Of a stretch of DNA of 64,000 nt, positions 47,590-52,153 are shown one piece after another; within the stretch, counting starts at the first letter, position 1, and every line of letters begins with the position of its first letter. The notes beneath the pieces were generated by a model. It was not told the origin of the DNA. It worked only from the letters and a program-made list of their open reading frames with translations, and did not search any database. The translations under genes were made by a program, and so were the position numbers. Source of the DNA: Methanoculleus chikugoensis. GTDB lineage: Archaea; Halobacteriota; Methanomicrobia; Methanomicrobiales; Methanoculleaceae. Location of the stretch: NCBI RefSeq assembly GCF_019669965.1, contig NZ_AP019781.1, positions 992,001 through 1,056,000 of the forward strand, read 5' to 3'.

Positions 47590-48079
47590 TCCTCTCTCAA
47601 AGAACCGCTATCCGTCATTCTCCCGTCAACCCTCCTGCCGATCTCCTCCGCCATCCGGTTCTTGACGAGGTCATCCCGAAAAGATCCTGAACGTTCCACA
47701 CTCCCTGATCGGAACACTCACCTCCGAGGTTTCTCCCCTCTGAACGATATCCCGGGCAAGGGGGGTGAAACGGCTTCCCATCGGGTATCGCCACTCGGTG
47801 GAGGGTCCGGGGAGGTGCGACCGGAGGGAGTTTGAGCACCGCAAGGTGCGAGCGGGTGTCCCCCTCCCGGCAAAGAGGTTTTGGGACAACTTCGATATCA
47901 AAGTAGGCGAAGTTGATGAGTTCCTCTTTCGTCGGGAAGTAGTGAAAGAGCGTCCCGTTTGAGATGCCGGCCTCGCGCGCGATGAGCGACGTCGGGGTGC
48001 CGTGAAATCCCCTCTCCGTGAAGAGCCGGACGGCAGTAGCGACGATGGCGGTCTTTTTTCTGTCCCTGTCCTCGGTCAT
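47590..48079 (-). pseudogene. Broken TetR-family regulator
   Basis: An intact HTH domain (MTEDRDRKKTAIVATAVRLF, GISNGTLFHYFPTKEELI) starts at ATG 48079. After residue about 60 the ligand domain is lost and the rest is spread over other frames (WRYPMGSRF in one, DLVKNRMAEEIGRR in another). The total is about 150 codons against about 190 in the family. It probably once regulated the adjacent aldo/keto reductase. The HTH part might still bind DNA, but dimerisation would be impaired. Confidence 0.7.
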
Positions 48080-48280
48080 ACGGGCCTCGCGGGTGTGACC
48101 GGTCGTTCTGGAGTGACCACTCATTCCAACGATCTTCAGGGCATTATGGCTTTCTTTTCGTGCGGTTTCATACACGATTCGGATTGCCTCCATGAGCGGA
48201 GAGGGTAGGAGAGGTACACCGATCTCCCCGGGCACGTGGGCGGCCCTGCAGGAGAGTTAGCGGTGAAACAAATCGAAATG

Positions 48281-48287
48281 TATATAT
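48281..48287 (+). promoter_or_regulatory. TATA box of the GWCPNA operon
   Basis: TATATAT, preceded by a BRE-like CGAAA (48274-48278), lies 24-30 bp before ATG 48311, implying a leaderless first gene. Confidence 0.6.
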
Positions 48288-48309
48288 CGTCAACCTATGA
48301 ATGTTGACG
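48288..48309. promoter_or_regulatory. Perfect inverted-repeat operator
   Basis: CGTCAAC (48288-48294) and GTTGACG (48303-48309) with an 8-nt spacer lie directly between the TATA box and the start codon of the HTH gene. Repressor sites in archaea often occupy this position and block RNA polymerase recruitment. Autoregulation by the adjacent HTH protein is the natural inference. Confidence 0.65.
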
Positions 48310-48310
48310 C

Positions 48311-48757
48311 ATGCCTATCCCCTTAAACGACAGGCAGTTTGCGTTCTGGCGCCTCCGCCGCACCGGCCTCCCGAATGTCCAGATCGCGGACCGCTTCAAG
48401 ATATCCCGCCAGGCGGTCTCGAAGGCGCTGCTTGCCATGGACCGGAAGGTCGAGGAGACGCTTCTTTCGATGGCGCAGGCGAACCAGATCGAGATCGAGC
48501 GCCTGAACGCAGAGATTGGCGTCCTCTTCGGCCGCTCCGTCCCGTTTGACGCCGCAGCCATCGTCTTCGTATCGGCGGACCACGGGGTGCAGGTCTGGTA
48601 CGAGCACGAGGGCGACTGCGGCGCGTGCCAGCGATACACCCGGTGCATCGAGCTCCTCTGGGGCTACGCGGACGAACTGGGGATTACGCTTGAAAAGACC
48701 GACGATCCGACCCGCATGGCCGACGAACTCTTTGCGAAACTCCGGGAGATGGTGTGA
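48311..48757 (+). CDS. HTH transcriptional regulator heading the GWCPNA operon
   Basis: A 148-residue protein. The helix-turn-helix (QFAFWRLRRTGLPNVQIADRF, then SRQAVSKALLAMDRKV, residues 8-46) is followed by a coiled segment and a sensor-like C-terminal domain with a cysteine motif HEGDCGACQRYTRC (C-x2-C-x5-C), which could bind a metal or sense redox. It is the first gene of a coupled operon: its TGA overlaps the next gene's ATG (TGATG, 48755-48759). A perfect operator lies just before its start. No family name is assigned. Confidence 0.85.
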   Translation: MPIPLNDRQFAFWRLRRTGLPNVQIADRFKISRQAVSKALLAMDRKVEETLLSMAQANQIEIERLNAEIGVLFGRSVPFDAAAIVFVSADHGVQVWYEHEGDCGACQRYTRCIELLWGYADELGITLEKTDDPTRMADELFAKLREMV

Positions 48758-49515
48758 TGCCGCTCATGGAGACGATGCGGGAGTACCTCGGATGGTGTCC
48801 CGCGGAGGGGCAGGCGCACCGGCAGATGCAGCCGGGGTCCGGCATGCGCGGGGACACTCCACATGACGGCCGGCGACGGGTCGGCGGTATAAACATGGAG
48901 ATCGATTCAATCGCCAAAGAGGAACTCTGGCGCTCAACTGCAGTCTTCTGGATCTTGGTCATCATCACTGCTTTCGTCATCACAGCCGGCTATCTCCCAA
49001 TACCGGCATTTCTGTTGTTTCCCCTGCCACTGGCGATCACTGCAGTAGTCTTCTGCATCGTGGTGTGGTACAGGCGAAAAGAGCATTTGACCGATCCCAA
49101 TCCTGTGAGTATCCTCCACCACGCTCTCGGGTTAAGAAACAGAGAGAAGAAAACGAAGCGGAGAGGAGCTGCCATCGAGAAAGCGTTCGATGCCGCCCTT
49201 CTCGCTATAATCTTCCTAATCTACCTCTACGCATCCCTTGCGTACTCTATCAGCCAGATCTACTGGCTTCCCGTCCTTATCGTCATCAGCCTGTTCCTGG
49301 CCCGCATTGTCTTCACCGACGGTGAGGTTCAACGCGTCACCGTTGCGCGGTCATTTGTCTTCTACCTCATAGTAGCCATGGTTTTTCTTCTGCGCTACCT
49401 AGCATTGGGGTATCCCATTATCCCCCTCCTCCAGGCATTCGTGCTTATTGGTATCGTTTCTTTTCCCATACTCTACATCTGGGAACGGCGACGCGCACCG
49501 GAGGGAACAGATTGA
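48757..49515 (+). CDS. GWCPNA-motif membrane protein 1
   Basis: A 252-residue protein. The N-terminus has the signature METMREYLGWCPAEG, a variant of the motif shared by four other genes here. About five or six hydrophobic helices follow (from about residue 62 to 240), with a positively charged loop (RNREKKTKRRG) between helices. ATG 48757 overlaps the upstream stop; its own stop overlaps the next small ORF (TGATG). Membrane location; function unknown. It resembles DUF1673 as I remember it, unverified. Confidence 0.8.
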   Translation: MPLMETMREYLGWCPAEGQAHRQMQPGSGMRGDTPHDGRRRVGGINMEIDSIAKEELWRSTAVFWILVIITAFVITAGYLPIPAFLLFPLPLAITAVVFCIVVWYRRKEHLTDPNPVSILHHALGLRNREKKTKRRGAAIEKAFDAALLAIIFLIYLYASLAYSISQIYWLPVLIVISLFLARIVFTDGEVQRVTVARSFVFYLIVAMVFLLRYLALGYPIIPLLQAFVLIGIVSFPILYIWERRRAPEGTD

Positions 49516-49646
49516 TGATAACTCGTGGAGCGATGGATCTGGTCTGCACACCCGTCCGGGAGATATTCGGGGTGGAGATCAGCAGTGAACCCACTTTGAG
49601 GGAAATGATAGCGGGCAGACAAAGAATCCTGGAGATGATGTTATGA
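49515..49646 (+). CDS. Overlooked 43-residue small protein in the GWCPNA operon
   Basis: ATG 49515 overlaps the stop of the previous gene (TGATG), and the TGA at 49644-49646 overlaps the ATG of the next gene (ATGA, from 49643). The product is a short amphipathic helical protein (MDLVCTPVREIFGVEISSEP, then TLREMIAGRQRILEMML) with no transmembrane segment. Double overlap with both neighbours is strong evidence for translation, because coupling is the pattern of the whole operon. Function unknown; it could be a regulatory or assembly subunit. Confidence 0.7.
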   Translation: MITRGAMDLVCTPVREIFGVEISSEPTLREMIAGRQRILEMML

Positions 49647-50251
49647 CTCTCATGGAGACGATACGGGCGTATCTTGGGTGGTGTCCCATGCAGGCGTCGA
49701 TGCGGAGGGATCTAACGGTGCTGCCGGTTACGGCCGTAGCGGCGGGCGGGAAGGACTGTGTCCCCCGGACCGAATCTGGATGGTGGCACCGCTACCACAA
49801 CCGGCTGCTCGTCGCGGCAGTGGCCTTCTCGGCGGCGGCAGCTACGGCCTTTCTCCTGATCGAGGACGCTCCGGAGTACCCGGAGGTCTGGATGGGCCTT
49901 GCCATTGGGGTGGGATTTACCCTCGGTTTCCTGGCCGGTCACCGGAGGCAGTATGCACAGGTTGTTGCCGGTGAGTTCATCGAGGCCAACATGACTAAAA
50001 GGCAGCGCATCGTCCGGCGTCTGAGCACGCCGGCGGCCGCCGTTATTCTCGCCGGCTTTATAGCGTATTTTGCCCTGGGCCGCACTTTCGGCCCGATTCT
50101 CGGGTTCATGTTGGGTCTGAGCCTTGCTGGCTGGGCCCAGTACGGCATCACGCTCCTCTGGGAGTGGCGGCACCGGACTACCCTGATCGCGGAGAAGGGG
50201 TCGATGTATGCCCTGGATGCGGTAGCGGAGGGTGAACCTGTATGCCTGTGA
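49643..50251 (+). CDS. GWCPNA-motif membrane protein 2
   Basis: A 202-residue protein starting MTLMETIRAYLGWCPMQAS, the shared N-terminal signature. Four hydrophobic helices follow (about 57-75, 83-103, 130-147 and 151-171). A GGAG precedes the start, which overlaps the 43-residue ORF by 4 bp; its 3' end overlaps the next gene by 10 bp. Function unknown. Confidence 0.8.
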   Translation: MTLMETIRAYLGWCPMQASMRRDLTVLPVTAVAAGGKDCVPRTESGWWHRYHNRLLVAAVAFSAAAATAFLLIEDAPEYPEVWMGLAIGVGFTLGFLAGHRRQYAQVVAGEFIEANMTKRQRIVRRLSTPAAAVILAGFIAYFALGRTFGPILGFMLGLSLAGWAQYGITLLWEWRHRTTLIAEKGSMYALDAVAEGEPVCL

Positions 50252-50940
50252 AGTTCTCCGAGACGATACGCCGGTGGATGGGCTGGTGCCCGAACGCGGC
50301 AGCTGCCGGCACCGTCCGGCGCCGGTATGCCGCGCCGGAGGGCGAGGTCGGTACGGCGGCGAGAGAGGGCAGCCAGAAGGTGGTGGAGGGTGCACTGGTG
50401 GATTACGGCCCGATCGGCACTCCGGCAATCTACCTCATTCTGCCTGTTGCTGGCGCTCTGCTCATCGGCTGCCTCGCTGTGACAGCCCCTGCAGGGCGCC
50501 TTATCCTGCTGGGTGTCATACTGGCTTTCTCCGGTGTGGAACTGTACAGTGTCATACGAAGAGCCCGCGTCGAGATCTCTTCGGAGGCGATCACCATCAG
50601 GCGGCCGCTCTTTCGTCCCATCGTCATCCCGAAAGATGCCGTCGTGAAGGCGGAGGTGGGAGAGAACAAACTCCCTGTCCCATCATGGCTCCTTGCGACG
50701 GCACTGGCGCCCCTTCTCGTATCGGCGGCCGCCGGTATATACTTTGGATGGGATAACCCGACCTCCATGCGGTTCATTTTCGGGCTTGGCGGCGCTATCT
50801 TCTTCCCCGTGATCATCTACCGCACCTACGTGCGGACACGGTACCCGCGAACCCTGACGATAACGACGCCGAAGAGGATCGCCGCAGTCTACACGGACGA
50901 CCCCGAACGGATAGCCCAAACACTGGGGGTAGCCGGATGA
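50242..50940 (+). CDS. GWCPNA-motif membrane protein 3
   Basis: A 232-residue protein: ETIRRWMGWCPNAAAAG, a conserved RRRYAAPEGEVG, two hydrophobic helix pairs (about 62-100 and 151-190), and between them a beta-rich soluble segment (ISSEAITIRRP, VIPKDAVVKAEVG) resembling a PH-like domain. The C-terminus reads IAAVYTDDPERIAQTLG, a second motif shared with membrane protein 5. A GGAGG lies before ATG 50242. It overlaps the next gene by ATGA. Confidence 0.82.
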   Translation: MPVKFSETIRRWMGWCPNAAAAGTVRRRYAAPEGEVGTAAREGSQKVVEGALVDYGPIGTPAIYLILPVAGALLIGCLAVTAPAGRLILLGVILAFSGVELYSVIRRARVEISSEAITIRRPLFRPIVIPKDAVVKAEVGENKLPVPSWLLATALAPLLVSAAAGIYFGWDNPTSMRFIFGLGGAIFFPVIIYRTYVRTRYPRTLTITTPKRIAAVYTDDPERIAQTLGVAG

Positions 50941-51416
50941 CGGTCGTTATGGAGTATATCCGGAAGAAGCTCGGCTGGTGCCCGAACGCCGACGCCGTCA
51001 GACCCGTCCGGCGCACGAGCGCGGAAGCGGGCTACGGGGATGCGTGGCAGAGAAAGAAGCCGGAGCCAGACCCCGGCCCGGAGCCGGCCGGCACCGCAGG
51101 CGGCGATCGGAGCGGCTACCAGGACAACATGCTGCTGATCCTCATTGCCCTGGCCTGGCTCCTCCCGGTCGTTTACGACCGTGAGTTCCTCCCGATCCTC
51201 ATCCTCCTCTCCGCCGTCGCCGTGTATTACGACGCGCAGAGTGTCCGTGCCGGGGAGAAGTTCGAGAAGGAGACGCTTTTTGGCGATATCGTCACCTGGC
51301 AGCCGCTGACCTGGGGAGCGGCGACGCTTGTCGGGGGGATCATCATCATGGCGATCTATCTCTTCCACCGGAAAGAGATCTACCGCGCAAACGTCGGCGG
51401 GGAGGCATCCGCATGA
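50937..51416 (+). CDS. GWCPNA-motif membrane protein 4 (short)
   Basis: A 159-residue protein: MEYIRKKLGWCPNADAVRPV, a Pro/Glu-rich linker (PEPDPGPEPAG), and three hydrophobic helices. It lacks the PH-like middle and the C-terminal TDDPE motif of its neighbours, so it is a shortened or divergent version. ATG overlaps the upstream stop by 4 bp; its stop overlaps the next start (51413). Confidence 0.78.
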   Translation: MTVVMEYIRKKLGWCPNADAVRPVRRTSAEAGYGDAWQRKKPEPDPGPEPAGTAGGDRSGYQDNMLLILIALAWLLPVVYDREFLPILILLSAVAVYYDAQSVRAGEKFEKETLFGDIVTWQPLTWGAATLVGGIIIMAIYLFHRKEIYRANVGGEASA

Positions 51417-52153
51417 CGATGAAGTTCGCTGAAGCGATACGCCGGTGGATGGGCTGGTGCTCGAACGCCGCCGCCGGAGCCTGCCGGCGGCGGTACGCCG
51501 CGCTGGAGGGTGAGGTCGGGTTCGAAGCCGCTAAAGGCGGCAGCCGGGAGGTGGTGGAGGACGTGTTCGTGGAGTACACCAGTCCTCGCTTCTTTGTGCT
51601 GATGCCGTTCTCCGTCCTCACCTTCCTCTCCCTCTTCGTGATATCCGTTCTGATCCCCTCCCTGTGGCCCGCTCTCACCTTTACCTTCCTGGCCGTCTCC
51701 CTTCTGGCGTGGGCTGCATGGCGCATCTACTTCGATCCGTACCGGACCGCGATCGAGTTCTCCGGGAACTCCGTCACCATCCGGAGATCGCATACCGGGC
51801 CGCTTGTCTTCGGAAAGGACACGATCCGGTCGGTCGAGGTGAAACGACCCTACCTCTCTATACCCCGCTGGGTGTCCGCACTGCTCCTTGTACTCATGAC
51901 TGCAGCGATATTCTTTGCCGGCGTAGGGAACTGGTTGATGCGCTACCCGGGCGACCCGGCCGCTGATCCCTATCTTGGCTTTCAGGTTCTCCTGGCGGTC
52001 GGCTGGATGGTGTTTATACTGGAGTCGCTCTATCGCGCCCTTCTCAGTCTGCGGTATCCCGGCCACGTCAGAGTGAGGCTCGAGCCCGCCGGTTTCCTCC
52101 ATATCTACACGGACGACCCGGAGAGAGTTGCGGCGCTGCTTGGTTCCCCGTGA
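51413..52153 (+). CDS. GWCPNA-motif membrane protein 5
   Basis: A 246-residue protein: EAIRRWMGWCSNAAAGACRR (here S replaces P), a RRRYAALEGEVG box identical in layout to protein 3, two helix pairs, a PH-like middle (FSGNSVTIRRSH, VFGKDTIRSVEV) and the C-terminal LHIYTDDPERVAALLG. It is clearly a paralog of protein 3. Last gene of the coupled operon; the next gene starts 97 bp later. Confidence 0.82.
   Translation: MTMKFAEAIRRWMGWCSNAAAGACRRRYAALEGEVGFEAAKGGSREVVEDVFVEYTSPRFFVLMPFSVLTFLSLFVISVLIPSLWPALTFTFLAVSLLAWAAWRIYFDPYRTAIEFSGNSVTIRRSHTGPLVFGKDTIRSVEVKRPYLSIPRWVSALLLVLMTAAIFFAGVGNWLMRYPGDPAADPYLGFQVLLAVGWMVFILESLYRALLSLRYPGHVRVRLEPAGFLHIYTDDPERVAALLGSP

Follow-up and report, generated by a model that had tools for sequence, protein, structure and literature searches.

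The question raised by this locus is whether a perfect inverted repeat, set between a TATA box and the start codon of an HTH regulator gene in Methanoculleus chikugoensis, is an operator, and if so, which protein binds it and with what effect. The window analysed here is the whole stretch of 64,000 nt that contains the gene. An earlier note had placed the repeat between the TATA box and ATG 48311, and this was confirmed by direct reading of the sequence, a single base, C 48310, sitting between the right arm and the ATG. The features of the promoter and of the regulator gene are as follows.

48271..48280, + strand: AATCGAAATG, putative BRE for the HTH operon; among 27 promoters of the genus a block at about -43 to -33 is conserved
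48281-48287, + strand: TATA box TATATAT, from the sequence; 133 distinct promoters have a T/A-rich block at constant distance, and within the genus A-27 and T-26 do not vary
48288-48294, + strand: inverted-repeat arm CGTCAAC, read from the sequence
48289..48294, + strand: left half-site GTCAAC, invariant in 27/27 same-genus promoters; GT[C/A]AA[C/T] phylum-wide
48295..48302, + strand: 8-bp spacer CTATGAAT; length always 8, middle columns drift freely
48303-48309, + strand: inverted-repeat arm GTTGACG, read from the sequence
48303..48308, + strand: right half-site GTTGAC, with TTGAC invariant in 27/27 same-genus promoters and the G in 26/27; [G/A]TT[G/T]AC phylum-wide
48311..48757, + strand: HTH regulator gene, 148 aa (open reading frame); its start, predicted to be leaderless, follows the core operator after 2 nt
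48404..48433, + strand: recognition helix SRQAVSKALL, codons 32-41; S32, A35 and K38 differ in a paralog clade with a different operator
48617..48646, + strand: C-x2-C-x5-C codons (C103, C106, C112), kept in 132/132 full-length relatives

A 7-bp inverted repeat alone proves nothing. Such repeats, with a spacer of up to 12, are common in the window (143, against about 76 expected from base composition), and a chance repeat without function had to be weighed. The full 22-bp pattern occurs only once in the window without mismatch. The genome-wide statistics, which are pattern searches, gave one perfect site for the 20-bp core in the 2.62-Mb genome, and four sites with one mismatch versus 2 for the reversed control pattern; looser patterns with 3 mismatches were dropped because they returned hundreds of chance matches. 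It is the position and the conservation of the repeat that exceed chance. The footprint, drawn from 27 promoters of the genus, shows no variation in 11 of the 12 columns of the core arms, and the remaining one is kept in 26/27. The BRE/TATA block is strongly conserved, with A-39, C-37 and A-34 of the BRE invariant; variation is found in mid-spacer and in the DNA that precedes the BRE. The footprint, with its conservation at a fixed position phylum-wide and its free spacer drift, refutes the chance reading, whose probability is negligible. The earlier description of seven-base arms stood only in part: the perfect repeat is present, but the conserved arms comprise six bases, as conservation does not reach the outer C:G pair 48288/48309, position -23 being T in 21/27 same-genus promoters. 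What is conserved is GTCAAC-N8-GTTGAC, 48289-48308.

The earlier note had taken a lack of the repeat in orthologous promoters as grounds for giving up its reading; this check was made, and it did not refute the reading. Among 134 distinct relatives of the HTH protein, which span Methanoculleus, Methanoregula, Methanosarcina, ANME-2 and Methanoperedens, the pattern GTMAAY-N8-RTTKAC stands at the same place behind the TATA box in 133, across the phylum, and in 128 of the 134 the gap to the start codon is exactly 2 nt. Site positions G1, A4, A5, T16, T17 and A19 are identical in 133/133 operators. Even in the distant relative L155 (38% identity), GTAAAC-N8-GTTTAC occupies the corresponding position. 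Sequences retrieved independently from named genomes agree, the operator being present in ANME-2, Methanoperedens, Methanosarcina, Methanolobus and Methanogenium.

The distribution of the site was then compared with that of the gene. The HTH gene, a single copy in the Methanoculleus chikugoensis genome, occurs in 84/199 genomes of the order and in 74/393 sampled across the phylum, with named records from Methanoculleus, Methanoregula, Methanolinea, Methanogenium, Methanosarcina, Methanolobus, Methanococcoides, ANME-2 and Methanoperedens. Within the order, a perfect site was found in 69/84 gene-bearing versus 1/115 gene-lacking genomes (Fisher P 3e-37, with genomes counted regardless of relatedness). 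The lone perfect site in a gene-lacking genome, G113, looks like chance, since no TATA box directly precedes it and the reversed control pattern also matches a minority of genomes.

Co-conservation alone names no binder, and the dyad might be the site of another, unlinked regulator controlling the operon. The paralogs of the HTH protein are informative in this regard. One paralog clade (support 100/99) carries the recognition helix TRQGVSQ instead of SRQAVS[KRH], and the operator GTAAAY-N8-RTTTAC precedes the genes of 23/24 members of this clade versus 2/109 others, the paralog L089 being the exception to the match between helix and operator. The changed helix stands beside the changed operator within the same genomes, and the co-change is essentially one evolutionary switch, not many independent ones, so that its P value makes the evidence look stronger than it is. 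Since a change of recognition helix comes with a change of operator type, and the site is nearly confined to gene-bearing genomes, the dyad is probably bound by the HTH protein itself. An unlinked regulator is very unlikely, given that the perfect site is almost restricted to genomes with the HTH gene, follows this gene over the phylum, and differs, in step with the recognition helix, between paralogs of one cell. The earlier proposal that the HTH product acts on its own promoter is thus well supported by comparison, through conservation, helix/operator co-change and gene/site co-occurrence.

An asymmetric operator, GTCAAC/GTTTAC, accompanies the usual helix in Methanosarcina-type orthologues (L131-L140, L147-L149, L153, L154, L157 and L159). 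The two half-sites of Methanosarcina-type operators may not be equivalent.

Further target sites were also examined. Out of 13 extra GTCAAC sites, nine precede Yip1 genes, two belong to a lipoprotein gene or the homologous position (L113, L112), and two belong to decayed HTH copies. The Yip1 domain was tested on two of the nine loci and scored 97 bits. In these Methanoregula-type loci (L111, L114-L121), a perfect operator lies near position 1500, directly behind the TATA box of the Yip1-domain gene. The TATA distance is kept, and the ATG is about 40-58 nt from the site in 8/9; at L120 the longest reading frame begins inside the site. As the Yip1 sites stay beside the TATA box while the ATG moves, the operator goes with the core promoter, and hence with transcription, not translation. 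The paralog operator has other partners: in Methanoregula-type genomes, GTAAAY-N8-RTTTAC also precedes genes for surface proteins with a signal peptide, at 2 nt from the ATG (L170, L172-L174, L183, L185, L188-L192), and no confident Pfam domain was found in these proteins. In the Methanoculleus chikugoensis genome, pattern searches gave no second target, only the self-site being perfect, and its four Yip1 genes have no convincing site; the regulon may thus be the operon alone in this genome.

Two further kinds of loci carry these operators. The decayed HTH copies (L110, near 2402, and L122, near 1500) retain a TATA box and operator, and may be decoy sites or exposed leftover promoters. In L175 and L178, the reading frame behind a paralog-type operator is short and interrupted, and an ABC transporter ATPase gene comes after it.

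The geometry of the Yip1 promoters bears on another explanation, namely that the repeat is an RNA hairpin before the start codon, controlling translation. If transcribed, the strand does fold into a 7-bp hairpin of -14.4 kcal/mol (z -3.1). However, what is kept is the letters and not just the pairing, as the six positions identical in every operator indicate, and the Methanosarcina-type operators GTCAAC/GTTTAC and GTAAAC/GTTGAC break pair 3/18. In addition, TATA spacing puts the transcription start at about the ATG, the site in Yip1 promoters is far from the ATG, and an Rfam search gave no match. Because of the fixed letters, the pair-breaking operators, the Yip1 geometry and the lack of an Rfam match, the hairpin was rejected as the main function, and this reading is regarded as extremely improbable.

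With the HTH protein as the likely binder, its architecture was considered. The AlphaFold2 model (mean pLDDT 91.7) has helices at 8-17, 22-29 and 33-57, which form a sigma-4-like HTH with a long stem helix, and then four strands and two helices. In structure comparison, the HTH half aligns with LuxR/NarL-type HTH domains at rmsd 1.3-1.8, and the whole model has no match in the PDB under E 0.001. The C-x2-C-x5-C motif pointed out in the earlier note proved to be constant among full-length relatives, so that the protein has the conserved cysteine ligands expected of a metal- or iron-sulfur-sensing repressor. These three invariant cysteines are a candidate sensor; no known sensor domain was matched by either sequence or fold.

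Among described archaeal regulators, the Tfx family (TIGR00721; Tfx MTH0916, EnfR) shares with the HTH protein a sigma-4-like N-terminal HTH, a long third (stem) helix and a similar size. The tfx gene precedes the fmdECB operon, and Tfx binds the promoter region of that operon (PMC3087415). EnfR of Thermococcus onnurineus (PDB 8hno/8hnp) is a dimeric repressor acting on an inverted repeat with a TATA-like element in it (PMC10570040), and it is the nearest sensible PDB match to the whole HTH-protein model, at a TM-score of about 0.35. Membership of the Tfx family was rejected, as TIGR00721 scored 17.3 bits against a cut-off of 60.25; over 20 relatives of the HTH protein, the best E-value with this profile was 1.3e-5. 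The C-terminal domains also differ, that of EnfR being beta-alpha-alpha-beta-beta whereas the HTH-protein model has four strands followed by two helices. With this strand/helix order and the low TM-score, the model does not have an EnfR-type note-head domain. Cysteine is not mentioned in the EnfR paper (PMC10570040), and the EnfR operator differs from that of the HTH protein.

The genes that would be under this control follow directly.

48757..49515, + strand: membrane protein with an N-terminal LGWCP motif, divergent DUF1673-like (PF07895 13.8 bits, below cut-off)
49643..50251, + strand: DUF1673 family membrane protein (PF07895 30.4 bits, at cut-off)
50242..50940, + strand: DUF1673 family membrane protein (PF07895 36.5 bits)
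50937..51416, + strand: DUF1673-like membrane protein (PF07895 25.6 bits, below cut-off)
51413..52153, + strand: DUF1673-like membrane protein, last in the presumed operon (PF07895 28.6 bits, below cut-off)

The ATG of the first of them overlaps the HTH stop codon, and the reading frames overlap from 50242 on. With their GWC[PS] motif and varying DUF1673 match, these five are the only such genes in the genome. Across 48757-52153, the five membrane proteins share a short N-terminal IR-x2-[LM]GWC[PS] and elsewhere diverge strongly, the motif resembling a common handle. The association extends beyond this genome: the HTH gene is present in 63/64 DUF1673-bearing genomes of the order, where typically a DUF1673 gene lies 12-33 bp behind it on the same strand, and in the Methanosarcina-type genome G503 the DUF1673 genes stand in a row behind it. 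On the other side of the promoter, a TetR-type regulator gene (47615-48235, - strand; its start codon is only predicted) is divergent to the HTH operon, and an aldo-keto reductase/ferredoxin-like gene lies beyond this TetR-type gene that faces away from the operon.

GTCAAC-N8-GTTGAC is, with good confidence, the operator of the HTH protein, a dimer of which would repress its own leaderless operon until a signal releases it. The regulator very probably controls both itself and the membrane-protein genes behind it. A leaderless start is inferred from the TATA spacing and the lack of room for a leader, and with the transcription start predicted at the ATG, the operator occupies the stretch that separates the TATA box from the start of its own gene. 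In the mechanism that we infer, a dimer of the 148-aa protein, built from a LuxR/sigma-4-type HTH, a long stem helix and a C-terminal domain of a beta-sheet plus two helices with CX2CX5C, would bind the dyad, downstream of the TATA box and ahead of the point where transcription is predicted to start. It would most likely be bound alongside TBP and TFB, keeping RNA polymerase off the leaderless operon of the HTH gene and five DUF1673-type membrane-protein genes. Release would come by a signal, perhaps read through the three invariant cysteines.

The sign of this regulation is suggested by Pyrococcus furiosus LrpA, which binds at the downstream border of the TATA box of its own promoter, where TBP and TFB still bind and RNA polymerase is kept off (PMC2995911). 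The HTH protein resembles it as a probable autoregulator with a site bordering the TATA box downstream, and a polymerase block is the mechanism proposed here; the differences are that LrpA belongs to the Lrp family, with no Lrp/AsnC family among the profile matches of the HTH protein, and that the latter has a single short dyad. The same comparisons support binding equally well if the HTH protein is an activator, or if its concentration decides between activation and repression as with Ss-LrpB, which is dual on its own promoter (PMC2995911). Nevertheless, a protein bound behind the TATA box and upstream of the predicted transcription start would clash with RNA polymerase, and an LrpA site in the corresponding position leads to repression (PMC2995911), so that an activating or dual role is considered unlikely. 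Repression by the HTH protein, judged from the position of the site and the LrpA precedent, is most likely.

An archaeal self-operator is a known kind of device, and what appears to be undescribed in the literature consulted is the regulator family, its operator, the specificity switch between paralogs, and the link to DUF1673, Yip1 and surface-protein genes. The DUF1673 membrane proteins (arCOG06827, MGWCP motif), the same family as the genes downstream of the HTH gene, are listed as expanded in Methanosarcina in the DUF1673 passages of PMC4158269 and PMC4390880, and these passages describe no linked regulator or operator. Literature searches for a DUF1673-linked regulator and for a GTCAAC operator in Methanosarcina returned nothing and nothing relevant, respectively.

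A broader reading, which is offered tentatively and is somewhat doubtful, is that regulators with a cysteine motif operate phylum-wide, in methanogens and anaerobic methane oxidisers, on position-locked self-operators. Paralogs would have been re-specified by the change of one base per half-site and three recognition-helix residues, giving several insulated circuits per genome that place envelope genes (DUF1673, Yip1, surface proteins) under a redox or metal signal. DUF1673, so far merely an unexplained expansion, gains a regulator, an operator and a target-gene link in methanogens, ANME archaea and Methanoperedens. Paralogs that each have a matched operator furnish a ready system for the study of DNA-specificity change in archaeal repressors, and the Methanosarcina members are open to genetic testing. 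If the cysteines sense redox state or metals, they would represent a new input into envelope control in strict anaerobes.
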